This document shows, one piece after another, positions 34,588-40,505 of a DNA stretch of 64,000 bases. The DNA comes from Trueperella abortisuis (GTDB taxonomy: Bacteria > Actinomycetota > Actinomycetes > Actinomycetales > Actinomycetaceae): the NCBI RefSeq assembly GCF_030811095.1, contig NZ_JAUSQL010000001.1, forward strand, positions 682,001-746,000, given 5' to 3'. The translations under genes and the position numbers were made by a program. The notes beneath the pieces were generated by a model, which was given only the letters and a program-made list of their open reading frames with translations, did no database searches and was not told the origin of the DNA. Within the stretch, counting starts at the first letter, position 1, and each line of letters opens with the position of its first letter.

Positions 34588-37500
34588 ATGCACCGCATCT
34601 ACGTCGAAAAGAAGCCCAGCGAGCGCCTCGAGGCTGCGGCCCTCGCCTGCGAACTGCGCGACGTTCTTGGCCTTGACGTCGCCAGCGTGCGCGTCCTTGG
34701 CCGTTACGACGTGGACGGGCTGACCGACGACGAGTTCGCCGCAGTGGTCCCCACGATCCTGTCCGAGCCGCCCGTGGACGTGACCTTCTCCTCGCTTGAC
34801 GACGCCGCCCTGGCTGGCCACGTCTTCGCCGTCGAGCCACTGCCGGGCCAGTTCGATCAGCGCGCCGACTCGGCCGCCCAGTGCATCCAGATCCAGCTTT
34901 CGGGACAGCGCCCAACTGTCCGCGCAGCGAAGGTCTACGCCATCGAGGCGGACGCTGCCGCGCTCGCGGCGATCAAGGGCTATGTCATCAACCCGGTCGA
35001 GGCGCGGGAGGGGGACCTTGCCCGGCCCGAGAGCCTGGCGGCGGACGTGGCCGAGCCGGCCGACGTCGTGAACGTTCAGCTGGTGGGGACAAGCGACGAA
35101 CAGCTCGCCGCCCTGCGCGCCGAGCTCGGGCTGGCCATGAGCGAGGCGGACCTAGCGATGCTGCGCGATTACTTCGCCGCCGAGGGCCGCCAGCCCACGA
35201 TGACAGAGGTCAAGGTGGTCGACACCTACTGGTCGGATCACTGCCGGCACACCACGTTTAACACCGTCCTCGATGAGGTGAGCTTCGCGGACCCGCAGGT
35301 CCGCCAATCCTACCGAACCTACCTGGAGGCCCGCACCGAGGTGGGTCGAACCAAGCCCGTCACCCTCATGGACATGGGAACGATCGGCGCGAAGGTGTTG
35401 CGCTCCCGCGGCAAGCTCGCCCACGTGGAGGAGTCGGAGGAGATCAACGCGTGTACGATCCGCCGCGACGTCGTCGTGGACGGGAAGAGCGAGCCCTGGC
35501 TCGTCCTGTTCAAAAACGAAACCCATAACCACCCCACAGAAATCGAGCCCTTCGGCGGGGCGGCCACCTGCATCGGCGGGGCGATCCGCGACCCGCTCTC
35601 CGGGCGCGGCTACGTCCACGGCGCGATGCGCCTGAGCGGCTCCGGCGACCCGCGCACGCCCCTGTCGCAGACCCTCGAGGGCAAGCTGCCTCAGCGCACC
35701 ATCGCCCAGCGCGCGGCCGCGGGGTATTCCTCCTACGGCAACCAGATCGGGCTTGCCACCGGCATCGTGGACGAGATCTACCATCCCGGTTTCGTCGCCA
35801 AGCACATGGAACTCGGCGCGGTCGTCGCCGCCGTACCCGCGAGCCAGGTGCGCCGGGAGGCGCCGGCGGCGGGCGACGTCGTCGTGCTCGTGGGGGGCGC
35901 CACCGGGCGCGACGGCATCGGCGGGGCCACTGGTTCGTCGAAGACGCACACCGCCGAGTCGTTGACTACGGCCGGCGCCGAGGTGCAGAAGGGCAACGCG
36001 CCCGAGGAACGCAAGCTTCAGCGACTCTTTTCCAACCCCGCGGCCTCGCGCCTGATCAAACGCTGCAACGACTTCGGTGCGGGCGGCGTGGCTGTGGCCG
36101 TGGGCGAACTCACCGACGGACTCGACATCAATCTGGACGCCGTGCCCAAGAAGTACGCGGGGCTGGACGGCACCGAGATCGCGATCTCCGAGAGCCAGGA
36201 GCGCATGGCGGTGGTGGTCGAGGCCGCCGACGCCGAAACGTTCATTGAGCTTGCCGCCGGCGAGAACCTGCAGGCGACCATCATCGCCACCGTCACCGAC
36301 TCCGAGCGGCTGCGCATGTTCTGGCGTGGGGTCGCGATTGTCGACATCGCCCGCTCCTTCCTCGACACGAACGGTGCCGAGCAGCGCGTCCGAGCCGAGG
36401 TCGCCGCGGCGGGCGACTGGCGCGCCACCCAGTTGGGACGCTTCGGCTCGTTTGCCGAGCGCTTAGCGGATGTGGCCGGGGACCTCAACGTCGCCTCGAA
36501 GAAGGGGCTCGCTGACCGTTTCGATTCCACCGTGGGCGCCGGTACCGTGCTCATGCCTTTTGGAGGCACCCGCCAGGCCACCCCGATCCAGGCGATGGCG
36601 CACCGGCTACCGGCCTTTGCCGATACCGACGCCGTCACTGTCATGGCCTGGGGATACAACCCGTACCTGAGCGAGGCAAGCCCCTTCCACGGCGCCTACC
36701 TCGCGGTGGTCGAGTCGGTGGCAAAGCTGGTGGCAACCGGCGCCAGCGCCGACGACGTCTACCTTTCCTTCCAGGAGTACTTCGAGGGCTTGGGCCAGGA
36801 TCCCGCTCGCTGGGGTAAGCCCGTGGCCGCCCTGCTCGGCGCGCTCGAGGCCCAGATCGGGCTCGGCGCCGGGGCGATCGGCGGCAAGGACTCGATGTCC
36901 GGCTCCTTCCAAGACCTCTCCGTGCCGCCCACGCTCGTCTCCTTCGCGCTCGCCGTGGAAGAAGCTGGAAACATGGTGCCCAACCAGTTCAAGGCCGCCG
37001 GGAATAGGGTGAGCGTGCTACGCCCGCGCGTGGCGGAGGGCGGCGCGCTCGCGGGTCTGCCCGAGCCGGACTCGCTGCTCGAGGTGTTTAACCAGGTCAC
37101 CGAGCTGCTACGCAGCGGCGCCGTGGTCAGCGCCTACACGCCCGGCCGCGGCGGCATCGCCGAGGCCGTGATGAAGATGGCCGCAGGCGAGGGGCTCGGC
37201 TTCGACGTTGAAAGCGCCGACCTTGACTCGCTCTTCGACTACGCCTACGGCTCCTTCGTGCTCGAGTGGGCAGGCGGCGCCGCGGGGGCCGGCGCGGACG
37301 GCGTCGTGGGCGAGGCGCTCGGCACGGTGGCGCGCGAGGGCTTCTCCTTCGGCGGCCAGCGCGTGGCGAGCTCGGAGATCTTCGCGCTGAACGAGTCCGT
37401 GCTCGACGACGTCTACCCCCGCCACGTCGACCAGCCCGGCGAGGTGCCGGCCAACGTGGCCGCCCAGCCGCGGACCGTCGGCGCGACGGCCCCCGCGCGG

Positions 37501-38316
37501 GCCACGGCCCCCGGCCGGGCCGGCGTGCGAGCCCTCATCCCGGTGTTCCCCGGCACGAACTGCGAGTACGACACCGCGCGGGCCGTCGAGGCCGCGGGCG
37601 GGCTGGCGAACGTGTTCGTGGTGAAGAACCGCAACGAGGAGGACATCGCGCGCTCGGTGGAGGGCTTCGCCGCCGCGCTTGCCGATTCCCAGATGCTTGT
37701 GATCCCCGGTGGCTTCTCCGGCGGCGACGAGCCGGATGGCTCGGCCAAGTTCATCACCTCGTTCCTGCGCAACGAGGCTCTGGTGGAGGGCGTGGGCGCC
37801 CTGTTGGATCGCGACGGCCTCATCCTCGGCATCTGCAACGGCTTCCAGGCGCTGGTCAAGCTCGGGCTGGTGCCCTACGGCAAGATTGTTGAGCCGCGCC
37901 CCGAGGCGCCCACGCTCACCTTCAACCGGATCGGCCGCCACCAGTCGGGCATTGTGCGGGTGCGGGTGGAAAACACCTCCAGCCCATGGCTGGCCGGGGT
38001 CAAGCCGGGGGAGGTCTATTCCGTGCCGATCTCGCACGGAGAGGGCCGCTTCCAGGCGTCGGATGGCGACCTGCAAGCGATGATCGCGGGCGGGCAGATC
38101 GCCACGCGCTACGTTGACCTTGCGGGCGAGCCCACCATGGACATCGCCGCCAACCCCAACGGCTCGGTGGCCGCGATCGAGGGCATCATCTCGCCCGACG
38201 GGCACGTGTTTGGCAAGATGGGCCACGCAGAGCGCATAGGAAAGAACCTCTACCGCAACGTGCCGGGACGCTACGATATGCGGCTCTTCGAGTCGGCGGT
38301 GGCCTACCTCGGTTAA
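34588..38316 (+). CDS. purL: Phosphoribosylformylglycinamidine synthase, single long chain
   Basis: 1242 residues; ATG with AAAGGAAG upstream. It converts FGAR to FGAM using glutamine and ATP. The chain fuses the small-subunit-like N-terminus, two AIR-synthetase-like halves (FKNETHNHPTEIEPFGG in the first) and a C-terminal class I glutaminase starting near IPVFPGTNCEYDTARAVEAAGG. The nucleophile is Cys1083 in LGICNGFQAL, and SHGEGRFQA is the His/Glu region. This layout and length match the long PurL of clostridia, streptococci and bifidobacteria. Many other actinobacteria use separate PurS, PurQ and PurL. The last codons are repeated downstream at 39873. Confidence 0.96.
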   Translation: MHRIYVEKKPSERLEAAALACELRDVLGLDVASVRVLGRYDVDGLTDDEFAAVVPTILSEPPVDVTFSSLDDAALAGHVFAVEPLPGQFDQRADSAAQCIQIQLSGQRPTVRAAKVYAIEADAAALAAIKGYVINPVEAREGDLARPESLAADVAEPADVVNVQLVGTSDEQLAALRAELGLAMSEADLAMLRDYFAAEGRQPTMTEVKVVDTYWSDHCRHTTFNTVLDEVSFADPQVRQSYRTYLEARTEVGRTKPVTLMDMGTIGAKVLRSRGKLAHVEESEEINACTIRRDVVVDGKSEPWLVLFKNETHNHPTEIEPFGGAATCIGGAIRDPLSGRGYVHGAMRLSGSGDPRTPLSQTLEGKLPQRTIAQRAAAGYSSYGNQIGLATGIVDEIYHPGFVAKHMELGAVVAAVPASQVRREAPAAGDVVVLVGGATGRDGIGGATGSSKTHTAESLTTAGAEVQKGNAPEERKLQRLFSNPAASRLIKRCNDFGAGGVAVAVGELTDGLDINLDAVPKKYAGLDGTEIAISESQERMAVVVEAADAETFIELAAGENLQATIIATVTDSERLRMFWRGVAIVDIARSFLDTNGAEQRVRAEVAAAGDWRATQLGRFGSFAERLADVAGDLNVASKKGLADRFDSTVGAGTVLMPFGGTRQATPIQAMAHRLPAFADTDAVTVMAWGYNPYLSEASPFHGAYLAVVESVAKLVATGASADDVYLSFQEYFEGLGQDPARWGKPVAALLGALEAQIGLGAGAIGGKDSMSGSFQDLSVPPTLVSFALAVEEAGNMVPNQFKAAGNRVSVLRPRVAEGGALAGLPEPDSLLEVFNQVTELLRSGAVVSAYTPGRGGIAEAVMKMAAGEGLGFDVESADLDSLFDYAYGSFVLEWAGGAAGAGADGVVGEALGTVAREGFSFGGQRVASSEIFALNESVLDDVYPRHVDQPGEVPANVAAQPRTVGATAPARATAPGRAGVRALIPVFPGTNCEYDTARAVEAAGGLANVFVVKNRNEEDIARSVEGFAAALADSQMLVIPGGFSGGDEPDGSAKFITSFLRNEALVEGVGALLDRDGLILGICNGFQALVKLGLVPYGKIVEPRPEAPTLTFNRIGRHQSGIVRVRVENTSSPWLAGVKPGEVYSVPISHGEGRFQASDGDLQAMIAGGQIATRYVDLAGEPTMDIAANPNGSVAAIEGIISPDGHVFGKMGHAERIGKNLYRNVPGRYDMRLFESAVAYLG

Positions 38317-38483
38317 GCATTGGGTGGGCGGCGAGGCGTCCGGTCGGCGTCGTGACCGCGGCCGGACTGCGACGGAGCGGAGGATTCCGGGGCCATCTGC
38401 GCGCACGCGAACCCGGCGCCACAGGCCTCCGGTGGACGCCAACGGCTGTGCCTTGGCACCCGGCGGCGCTAGGAGGCGCGGCT
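38304..38483 (+). repeat. 180-bp direct repeat, copy 1 (purL end to whiB end)
   Basis: Runs from CTACCTCGGTTAAGC, which includes the purL stop, to AGGAGGCGCGGCT, which equals the last codons of the whiB-like gene. It matches 39873-40052 at a constant offset of 1569 with, by eye, two differences (38344 C against T, and one C/T in GGGG[C/T]CATC). The sequences diverge sharply on both outer sides. Confidence 0.95.
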
Positions 38484-38503
38484 AGCTAGCGGCTCCTAGC
38501 GCC
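38465..38503. terminator. Hairpin at the repeat-cassette junction
   Basis: GGCGCTAGGAG (38465-38475), inside repeat copy 1, pairs perfectly with CTCCTAGCGCC (38493-38503) in the cassette; the loop holds a nested GCTAGC. It lies four bases past the ATPase stop on the minus strand and 150 bases after purL, so it may terminate both. Confidence 0.6.
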
Positions 38504-38506
38504 ATT

Positions 38507-39733
38507 CTACTTTCGCGCTTTTCGGTTGCGTTTCTTGGGTACGACGACCTCGGGCATCTCGCGTTGCATAAAGCGGTCAAATTGAGGAACAGTGAACGCG
38601 GCGTAGCCGTGTGAAGGTGTGTAAAGCAAGCCCATATTGATGAGCTCCGACCGAGTCGGACCCAGACTTTGTGAGCCACGATGTATAACGTTAGCCACCG
38701 CGCTAGCCTTTTGGGGGTCAGGTCCAAGTTCTGCCATAGCGCGCAAATAGGCGGCTTGGAGAGGTGTAGCGCGGTCCAAGCGAACGCGGAAGAATGACTC
38801 ATCCAATCTTGATTCGAAAAGCGGGATCGCATTGTCGACATCGTGGCGGCGAAACGGGGAGCTTGGGGCGGTTCTCCAAACGGCGGAACCCAGCTCCTGA
38901 ATGAAATAGGGGTATCCCTCGGTTACAGCGATAGCGCGTTGCAGAGCGTCTTCCTCCCAAGCGACACCCTCTTGACGTGCAGGATCAGCGAAAGCTTTGC
39001 TTGCATCGGCTACGTTAAGTGAGTCAATTTTCGGAAAAGTGAACAGGCGCTCCGAATACGATTTTGCATCTCCGGCCAACTCTGCGATCTGTGGTAGGCC
39101 GGCACCCACCAAAGTGATTGGCAGGGCGCGTTGAACGGTCTTATGGATGGCCATGATGAGGGATTCAAGCTGGTTGCGATCGAGGAACTGAATCTCGTCG
39201 ATTAATAAGACCACTCCGCGCTTGTGCGCTTGGGCCGCCTCCCCGACGCTCACGAGAAGCTCGGTCAGGTCGTATTCGAGTACTTGCGAATCGGCCAGAC
39301 CAGCAAAATCGGTGATATTGAGGCTTGCGCTGATTGCGCCATCAGGATCGAAACTCATCGAGAACGAGCTGAGGACCCGCGCCGCTTTCTCAAGCCGTTC
39401 ATCCCATCTTGCTCGGGAGGAAATGCGCAACAGTGCGGTACGAAGCTTCATAGCGATCTGCTGACGGAAGCGTCCCTCGTCGTGCTTCGATGCTTCGAAC
39501 TCGACTGTGACCCAGCCCGAACGCTCGGCGCGCTCACGAAACTCATTGAGCAAGACTGTCTTGCCCACGCCTCGTAGCCCAGTGATAATCATGGACCGTG
39601 CCGGTCGGCCCTTCATGCTCCTGGCCAACAGGACTTCGAACTGATCCAGCTCATCCTCACGGCCGGCCAGAACGGTCGGCTTTGCGCCTGCATTGGGAGT
39701 GTACGGGTCGTCGATGTATTTCATGGCGTCCAC
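38507..39733 (-). CDS. AAA family ATP-binding protein (AAA_16/Orc1-like) with C-terminal winged-helix-like region
   Basis: 408 residues from GTG 39733 (ATG at 39724 is an alternative; neither has a clear ribosome-binding site). AGREDELDQFEVLLARSMKG leads to Walker A GLRGVGKT (about 51-58) and Walker B VVLLIDEIQFL (about 174-184), then VGAGLPQIAELAG as sensor region and YPYFIQELG. The last 110 residues (AVANVIHRGSQSLGPTRSELINMGLLY) look like a winged helix, and the tail is basic (KKRNRKARK), so it may bind DNA. Similar stand-alone ATPases are scattered in actinobacteria with no settled function. It is the only gene of the repeat-bounded cassette. Confidence 0.85.
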   Translation of the reverse strand: MDAMKYIDDPYTPNAGAKPTVLAGREDELDQFEVLLARSMKGRPARSMIITGLRGVGKTVLLNEFRERAERSGWVTVEFEASKHDEGRFRQQIAMKLRTALLRISSRARWDERLEKAARVLSSFSMSFDPDGAISASLNITDFAGLADSQVLEYDLTELLVSVGEAAQAHKRGVVLLIDEIQFLDRNQLESLIMAIHKTVQRALPITLVGAGLPQIAELAGDAKSYSERLFTFPKIDSLNVADASKAFADPARQEGVAWEEDALQRAIAVTEGYPYFIQELGSAVWRTAPSSPFRRHDVDNAIPLFESRLDESFFRVRLDRATPLQAAYLRAMAELGPDPQKASAVANVIHRGSQSLGPTRSELINMGLLYTPSHGYAAFTVPQFDRFMQREMPEVVVPKKRNRKARK

Positions 39734-39740
39734 ACTAGCA

Positions 39741-39801
39741 GTTTTATCGATTTATTGGCGGTTTATCTAAGGCAGATAAAACGCCAATAAATCGATAAAA
39801 C
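39741..39801. repeat. 61-bp imperfect palindrome upstream of the ATPase gene
   Basis: Outer arms GTTTTATCGATTTATTGGCG (39741-39760) and its exact complement (39782-39801); one unpaired position each side; inner arms TTTATCT (39762-39768) and AGATAAA (39774-39780) around AAGGC. TTTATC/GATAAA occurs four times. It starts eight bases upstream of the ATPase GTG and must cover its promoter, so an operator, possibly for the ATPase itself, is likely; a replication or resolution site is an alternative. The following 39802-39872 holds no gene. Confidence 0.85.
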
Positions 39802-39872
39802 TCGGCGCATGATTGAGATCCCCGCGTGCTCGCCCACGATCAACATTGCCGTCAGTGCTACGGTTCAGTGAT

Positions 39873-40052
39873 CTACCTCGGTTAAGCATTGGGTGGGCGG
39901 CGAGGCGTCCGGTTGGCGTCGTGACCGCGGCCGGACTGCGACGGAGCGGAGGATTCCGGGGTCATCTGCGCGCACGCGAACCCGGCGCCACAGGCCTCCG
40001 GTGGACGCCAACGGCTGTGCCTTGGCACCCGGCGGCGCTAGGAGGCGCGGCT
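39873..40052 (+). repeat. 180-bp direct repeat, copy 2 (reaching into the whiB 3' end)
   Basis: Matches 38304-38483 with two differences seen by eye. The first 15 bases repeat the last codons and stop of purL; the last 15 (40038-40052) are the genuine final codons and stop of the whiB-like gene. This copy therefore belongs to whiB and copy 1 belongs to purL. Confidence 0.95.
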
Positions 40053-40334
40053 GCGGCGTCGTTCCCTCGTCAAACGGTTACGCTCCTCTTCCGAGAGCCC
40101 GCCCCACACGCCGTAGGGTTCGTTGTGGGACAGCGCGTACTCGCGGCACTCGTCCAGAACGGGACATGTTTGGCAGATTCGCTTGGCACGCTCGATTCGA
40201 CGGCGACGCGGCCCGCCGCGCTCGCCTTCGGGATGGAAGAAGAATTCCGGATCCATCGTGTTGCACGATCCGAGAGCCTGCCAGTCCCAATAGTCGACCA
40301 GTGCGCCCTGCACGTCCTTGATGCGAGCTACCAC
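40038..40334 (-). CDS. WhiB family iron-sulfur transcription factor, WhiB3/WhiD-like
   Basis: 98 residues from the GTG at 40334, seven bases after GAAGGA (a GTG two codons earlier abuts the site). The four [4Fe-4S] ligands are Cys24, Cys54, Cys57 and Cys63 (GSCNTMDPE, RICQTCPVLDEC). The turn GVWGGLSEEER and a basic tail follow. YWDWQALGSCNTMDPEFFFHP closely recalls WhiB3 of mycobacteria and WhiD of Streptomyces, which sense redox state and act with the main sigma factor. Its last 15 bases are part of the direct repeat. Divergent from guaB. Confidence 0.92.
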   Translation of the reverse strand: MVARIKDVQGALVDYWDWQALGSCNTMDPEFFFHPEGERGGPRRRRIERAKRICQTCPVLDECREYALSHNEPYGVWGGLSEEERNRLTRERRRSRAS

Positions 40335-40505
40335 GTTCACTTCCTTCAGCTAGCCTTCACCGCCAAAACCGATGTTGTAACGGTCGGCGAGAATCCACCA
40401 TCGAGGTTACCCCACAAGTCCATTTTTTGGAATAGTCCAAGTTCAGCGTTGAGAAAATATCCGCACCTTGGACCGTGGCGAACGCGGCATGAACCCCCGG
40501 TGTAA

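Follow-up and report, generated by a model that had tools for sequence, protein, structure and literature searches.

A lone AAA+ ATPase gene between long direct repeats of the purL and whiB ends in Trueperella abortisuis: a candidate one-gene mobile unit with long target duplication

INTRODUCTION

In Helicobacter pylori, restriction-modification genes have been described as insertions with long target duplications (Nobusato et al. 2000, via PMC3031569, PMC1643837, PMC3874152 and PMC2869330). The target duplications are long and variable, 'in the order of 100 bp' (PMC3874152), and the genes move unlinked to any known mobile element, the insertions being recognised by comparison of related genomes (PMC3031569, PMC1643837, PMC3874152, PMC2869330). 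The passages of these four papers that treat this kind of insertion give no mechanism for it. In Arabidopsis, transposed single genes lie between direct repeats of the gene at the target site, some of them chimeric, and Woodhouse et al. (2010; PMC2869330) propose that circles form through recombination of the repeats and are re-inserted by homology. Here we describe a lone AAA+ ATPase gene of the actinobacterium Trueperella abortisuis, which lies between 180-bp direct repeats at the junction of purL and whiB. The gene was found in a stretch of 64,000 nucleotides (the window; positions 682,001 to 746,000 of contig NZ_JAUSQL010000001.1), and all coordinates given without a handle are those of the window. 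An earlier note, made from the letters of the window, had proposed either that a circle carrying the junction entered by a single crossover or that a tandem duplication captured the gene.

We compared this locus with the same site in congeners and with other members of the ATPase family (genomes and loci carry our handles, G and L, where they have to be told apart). The insert is probably a mobile unit of one gene and would belong among the insertions with long target duplication. The probabilities of this reading and of its competitors overlap, and the readings do not exclude each other.

RESULTS

Structure of the repeats and the insert

The two repeats (arms) lie in direct orientation at 38304–38483 and 39873–40052, with a constant offset of 1569, and they differ at only 2 of 180 positions (38345/39914 and 38393/39962), exactly as the earlier note had given them. 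The pair can be extended to 38299–38483 and 39868–40052 (185 nt, 4 mismatches). Each arm contains, in order, the final three codons and the stop of purL, a gap of roughly 150 bp, and the stop of whiB with its final four codons. Copy 1 does run on into purL and copy 2 into whiB; the two genes converge on the insert and each has a whole reading frame.

Between the arms is an insert of 1389 bp (38484–39872), the predicted ATPase cassette. From the list of open reading frames (ORFs) and Pfam, its sole credible gene is the ATPase, which is transcribed toward purL (38507–39733, minus strand, 408 aa, GTG start, with an ATG at 39724 as a possible alternative), and the same two sources bear out that the cassette encodes no recombinase. 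A search for inverted repeats of at least 20 bp linking the two ends of the insert found none. Upstream of the gene, a 29-bp inverted repeat (39740–39802, 97% complementary, 5-nt gap) overlaps the presumed ATPase promoter.

Bracketing repeats recur in the close clade

We looked for direct repeats with one copy on each side of the gene and both copies no more than 400 bp away from it, at loci having at least 400 bp of each flank. The loci were family members from named genomes and relatives, the close clade being those with at least 50% identity; duplicate rows (L003, L113, L004, L039, L086 and L088) were excluded, and non-overlapping genes of loci L004–L083 only served as controls. Bracketing repeats were observed at 10 of the 68 close-clade loci, at 9 distinct sites, and at 1 of 202 controls (Fisher P = 5e-6). 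Hence the expectation that members of this ATPase clade would be found between repeats of other genes was correct. The recurrence at other sites argues for a mobile one-gene unit and not a local accident, and together with the 2 mismatches in 180 it led us to reject chance repeats.

The repeats are 38–258 bp long and their sequence differs at each site; being long and variable, they are not ordinary transposon target-site duplications, in agreement with what the earlier note had said of the purL–whiB pair. They include the ends of purL and whiB and of genes that we take, from their translations as with all neighbours of family loci, to be an IspD-like gene, folE and a YchF-like gene. The repeat of L029 contains the stop of a small gene, that of L006 a terminator-like hairpin, and that of L043 falls within a glycosyltransferase gene, 40 bp short of the stop; those of L057 and L059 could not be assigned. 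Of the 11 long-repeat loci, 8 have a downstream copy that begins 0–36 bp past the ATPase stop, and in the other three it begins 115, 155 and 236 bp past it. Two further loci, L066 (20 bp) and L064 (47 bp at 77%), fell below the limits of the test and were not counted.

We also examined rebuilt empty sites of two of these loci. That of L084 had no contiguous match in 11 genomes, and that of L043 was rejected as an ancestral site, the left flank not lying beside that gene in relatives. ATPase fragments are present at about 2081–2288 of L173 (Rathayibacter, G080), beside the glycosyltransferase gene that is duplicated in L043, which we read as decay.

Limits of the putative mobile unit

Among pairs of loci with at least 74% DNA identity over at least 1050 bp (duplicate fetches of one locus included), 150 of 339 are no longer similar beyond at most 250 bp upstream of the gene and 150 bp downstream of it. 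Three of the best pairs are two Arthrobacter plasmids (92%), two bins of beta-proteobacteria (92%) and a pair of copies within a single Microbacteriaceae genome (90%); the loci L017 and L020 share a genome. In these three pairs the similarity sets in 57–121 bp ahead of the gene, close to or at the palindrome, and stops around the stop codon. Similar units at 87–92% DNA identity were found in unrelated surroundings, and therefore the unit has moved.

Filled, empty and decayed sites at folE

The folE site of Actinomyces was used to look for empty targets. When the folE flanks were joined through one repeat, the query matched contiguously (91–93%, positions 95–590 of 590) in 4 of 41 genomes (G097, G088, G112 and G109), which have no ATPase at the site; the remaining genomes gave no unbroken match to the left flank and are uninformative on this point. 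Therefore, the empty sites with a single repeat that had been predicted do exist, at folE; this finding does not extend to the purL–whiB repeat itself.

The filled sites were heterogeneous. The ten ATPase copies of the close clade (79–100% identity) placed beside folE include two that are broken, and a fragment in G128 could not be placed. Repeats of 59 to 202 bp were detected in 8 of the 10 filled genomes, and none in G094 and G120. Remnants of the ATPase beside folE in G122 and G095 point to decay, and in G110 a 52-bp repeat pair persists without the ATPase. Within folE, the repeat has its inner end at 164–168 bp in the A. oris group and at 49–57 bp in the others; we take these two zones to reflect at least two events.

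Differences between the arms

If one arm were a spare copy drifting freely, about 41% of the codon differences would be expected to be synonymous. At 10 loci (nine at folE and L043; two of them without any codon difference) we counted 31 synonymous and 6 non-synonymous differences (P ~1e-7). As the A. oris-group loci are related and not independent, the count was repeated with one or none of them. L223, L043 and L068 alone gave 15:2 (P = 7e-5), and addition of one A. oris-group locus gave 21:2 (L216), 21:3 (L032), 20:3 (L218) or 16:4 (L038), with P from 6e-7 to 4e-4, L038 being the weakest choice (P = 4e-4). Since the one-per-site count shifts with the related locus chosen, we have slightly lowered our confidence in the mobile-unit reading. 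Nevertheless, the differences are mostly synonymous, so that a fresh duplication in which the spare arm then drifted freely is unlikely; both arms look like recent functional alleles.

We observed that the arm differences cluster beside the insert in L032, L216, L218 and L043; the other loci shown were too alike, too short or without such clustering. In L032, L216 and L218 (not in L038) the arms adjoining the unit's 5′ end have one allele in common, which is absent from the other arms of these three loci and from six ATPase-free sites examined. The synonymous excess, the clustering and the shared allele fit homologous recombination inside the arms, either by entry of a circle or by later allelic exchange. 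An old shared insertion whose inner end escaped conversion would also leave such a shared allele. The proposal of entry as a circle by single crossover thus gains indirect support from the synonymous differences and from the clustering in four loci; an insertion with long target duplication and later recombination between alleles would account for them equally well.

The purL–whiB site in other Trueperella

We compared the site in seven other genomes of the genus. Trueperella sp. SUG403 (L004), a further assembly apart from these seven, has the arrangement of the window, with a 99% identical ATPase and arms 96.7% alike, and an assembly artefact is therefore unlikely. In G007 and G002 purL adjoins whiB without an ATPase between them, and purL followed by whiB was probably the ancestral order, as the earlier note had suggested. 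In T. bernardiae (G006, identical to L005) the site is filled by a frameshifted ATPase in two frames, 87–90% identical. Neither the ATPase nor whiB follows purL within the stretch seen in G005 and G003, and G001 and G004 had no purL match. G005 has a 74% identical ATPase elsewhere (L084), at another gene end, between repeats of 150 and 180 bp (79%).

The purL–whiB repeat could not be found as a single copy because the gap sequence is not conserved between the species. It follows that the window's two near-identical arms acquired the sequence they now have after T. bernardiae had split off, and we infer that this happened by conversion or by a new entry. In T. bernardiae, a long hairpin, near-perfect by eye, lies between whiB and the frameshifted ATPase (L005, 4740–5000).

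In the window, the gene presumed to be purL (34588–38316, plus strand, 1242 aa) was recognised from its translation by the earlier note and by us. Its C-terminal 199 aa had a match in 31 of 35 genomes, strong (52–100% identity) in 7 including the window's own; the weak matches in the remaining genomes may be other amidotransferases. The whiB gene lies at 40038–40340 on the minus strand (100 aa; Pfam Whib, 2.1e-26). No tRNA genes are present within the 64-kb window.

The ATPase and its upstream palindrome

The window ATPase matched Pfam AAA_16 (E = 1.9e-18). Its predicted model has an AAA+ core followed by a winged helix and resembles archaeal SSO1545 (2fna) and PABY2304 (2qen), which we take to be of the MNS/STAND group, at 14% identity. 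The archaeal model ATPase_2 (PF01637) was not passed (27.7 bits, cut-off 33.2), TniB fell just under its cut-off (21.2 and 22.4 bits), and the Orc1/Cdc6 model TIGR02928 was not passed either (28.1 of 181.3 bits). The predicted fold is also related to those of Orc1/Cdc6, TnsC, MuB and STAND ATPases. We did not adopt identities as a replication initiator or as TnsC, for which the fold is the sole basis. Among nuclease and methyltransferase families, none was above cut-off in Pfam or NCBIfam, and the PADLOC rows were weak only.

Dyads are common upstream of the gene across the family. When scored against mononucleotide shuffles of the same 75 bp, the mean z was 4.3 over 74 loci, and z exceeded 2 in 59% of them. 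By eye, the half-sites resemble GTTTA/TAAAC. A crude covariation count at the dyad, made without phylogenetic control, gave 384 of 991 changed pairs that remain paired via a double change, and we do not claim a hairpin. Most simply, the dyad would be a binding site of the ATPase's own winged helix, and the protein is most likely a signalling ATPase that binds DNA at its own palindrome and regulates itself. In several distant subfamilies (L162, L240–L242, L248–L260 and L285–L290) the upstream region holds repeat motifs peculiar to the subfamily, TGATAAACTTATCA-like or AAAGATCTAAAAGATCTAAAA among them, and this suggests that protein and binding site change together.

Distant relatives and other observations

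Among distant family members, repeats were found at 2 of 34 loci (L002 and L106); these are AT-rich and iteron-like and, by eye, are not host gene ends. L002 is a distant relative of the ATPase in the own genome of the window (G000:C1:115792–116916), with 35-bp repeats placed 14 bp before the start and 1 bp after the stop, and L106 is alike (33 bp). These repeats might serve as binding sites that flank the gene. The sole control gene with bracketing direct repeats is L073:1815–3167 (49 bp, 84%). A family ATPase is also present in MT837995.1 (L291), which is labelled Bacteriophage sp.; judged by its ORFs, this record looks like part of an actinobacterial chromosome, and the phage label may be wrong.

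DISCUSSION

Proposed mechanism

As we picture it, the unit would consist solely of the AAA+/winged-helix ATPase gene with its palindromic promoter region. When it arrived between purL and whiB, about 180 bp of the target would have been left on both sides, so that each of the two genes kept an intact end. Thereafter the arms would behave as ordinary homologous sequence. Recombination of arm with arm would delete the unit cleanly, and a molecule having the unit and one arm, either a circle by way of a single crossover or DNA donated by another strain, could bring it back and in doing so swap the alleles of the arms. We infer this excision and re-entry by homologous recombination from the comparisons above, and the circle model of the earlier note is a good candidate for both the loss and the re-entry of the unit.

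Several observations weigh against this mobile-unit reading. No repeats were detectable at 58 of the 68 close-clade loci, and none at the 10 plasmid loci fetched out of 118 plasmid records. No direct repeats were found around the filled site of T. bernardiae, nor was the purL–whiB repeat seen as a single copy at an empty site among the congeners. At L043 the repeat lacks the last codons of the gene, and a simple gene-end picture fails there. In the pair L019/L021 (89%) the similarity extends 81 bp beyond the stop. Synonymous differences would also arise if, after a clean insertion, the intact arm underwent ordinary recombination with other alleles. Finally, the close clade lies beside folE in 10 of the 10 Actinomyces genomes in which both were placed (49 surveyed), and among A. 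oris-group species the insert (92.4–96.5% identity) and folE (94.2–97.1%) are about equally diverged, which fits vertical inheritance there; these DNA identities give no support to horizontal spread of the unit among the species of that group.

Alternative explanations

The last two observations would also fit one old insertion per genus, whose arms were homogenised by gene conversion and which has no current mobility. The decayed copies and remnants at the same sites agree with this as well. However, a non-functional arm should gain non-synonymous changes between conversions, and few were seen; moreover, units at 87–92% identity in unrelated surroundings indicate movement. We regard vertical inheritance with gene conversion as rather unlikely, noting that it overlaps the mobile-unit reading, which also allows long residence.

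Homology-facilitated capture, which has been reported in competent bacteria and in conjugation (PMC3240628), would need no mobile unit with ends of its own. In this process, donor DNA having the ATPase beside the same gene would pair by homology on one side and join illegitimately on the other, inside the gene end, and the repeat would consist of the donor arm and the recipient arm. This accounts for the ATPase staying at folE while the inner junction falls in two zones (49–57 and 164–168 bp), and for the synonymous differences between the arms. It leaves unexplained how the unit reached a different gene in each genus and why similarity is mostly lost close to the palindrome and the stop codon. 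Further, the arm differences in Rathayibacter are at the inner end, opposite to its simplest prediction. We consider capture unlikely.

The ATPase itself might also drive insertion. Subunits on the 5′ palindrome array would recruit a host nuclease or replication enzyme, and two distant nicks in the target would then give long and variable duplications. The array, a common feature of family members, is located at one end of the unit, and the relation of the predicted fold to Orc1/Cdc6, TnsC, MuB and STAND proteins would suit such a role. Against this, the insert of the window has no transposase or nuclease gene, no common motif is visible by eye between the stop and the downstream repeat, and most close-clade loci lack repeats. 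We know of no AAA+ protein that inserts DNA alone, and we find this mechanism quite improbable. A broader form, in which the ATPase and its palindrome array are an autonomous element of a new type that assembles on the array and directs host enzymes without a transposase of its own, giving duplications of 40–260 bp, is speculative and improbable; in that form, the 3′ ends of genes would often be the targets, which a duplication there would leave intact.

A site-specific recombinase acting in trans from a prophage or integrative element, with the repeats as attL and attR, is hardly credible: the repeats do often hold the 3′ ends of conserved genes (purL, folE and ychF), which many islands likewise use, and the arms do carry different alleles, but no recombinase is encoded in the insert of the window, the repeat sequences are unrelated between sites and range from 38 to 258 bp, and the end points in folE vary.

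Comparison with known systems

Among the matches listed in a search of titles and abstract openings of the open-licence literature, no description of this ATPase family as a mobile unit was found. The family is widespread and often annotated only as 'ATP-binding protein', and it may be a mobile or selfish gene. A compact one-gene unit at several independent sites, with filled and empty sites in one genus and with arm alleles that record recombination, makes the question of mechanism testable.

The unit is neither a classical insertion sequence nor an element with its own integrase. Classical insertion sequences and transposons have terminal inverted repeats and make short target duplications of fixed length, whereas the search for inverted repeats of at least 20 bp between the ends of the insert found none and the duplications here are long and variable. 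Site-specific integrative elements have their own tyrosine or serine recombinase, whereas the insert of the window has one ATPase gene only. The transposition ATPases TniB, IstB, TnsC and MuB have a transposase adjacent to them, whereas the neighbours of the window ATPase are purL and whiB. Unlike Orc1/Cdc6 initiators, to which its predicted fold is related, the protein does not pass their family model; and although it appears to share with the archaeal MNS/STAND ATPases SSO1545 and PABY2304 the order of an AAA+ core and a winged helix, its low identity to them and its failure to reach the ATPase_2 cut-off set it apart.

Compared with the transposed genes of Arabidopsis, for which the proposed circles (PMC2869330) amount to the model of the earlier note, the plant cases described involve genes of several families, whereas here one bacterial gene family with recognisable limits is involved. 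The closest likeness is to the insertions with long target duplication. As described for the restriction-modification genes, the target repeats are long and variable (180 bp here, 38–258 bp elsewhere), relatives without the insert hold one copy of the repeat (folE, in four Actinomyces genomes), and the unit of the window has no transposase or integrase. Unlike the Helicobacter pylori cases described, the unit has one AAA_16 ATPase gene with a palindromic promoter, occurs in Actinobacteria and is not a restriction-modification system; many of its repeats lie on gene 3′ ends, and its arms have different alleles. On the reading that we favour, the ATPase unit is a variant of insertion with long target duplication, as the gene that it carries is another one.

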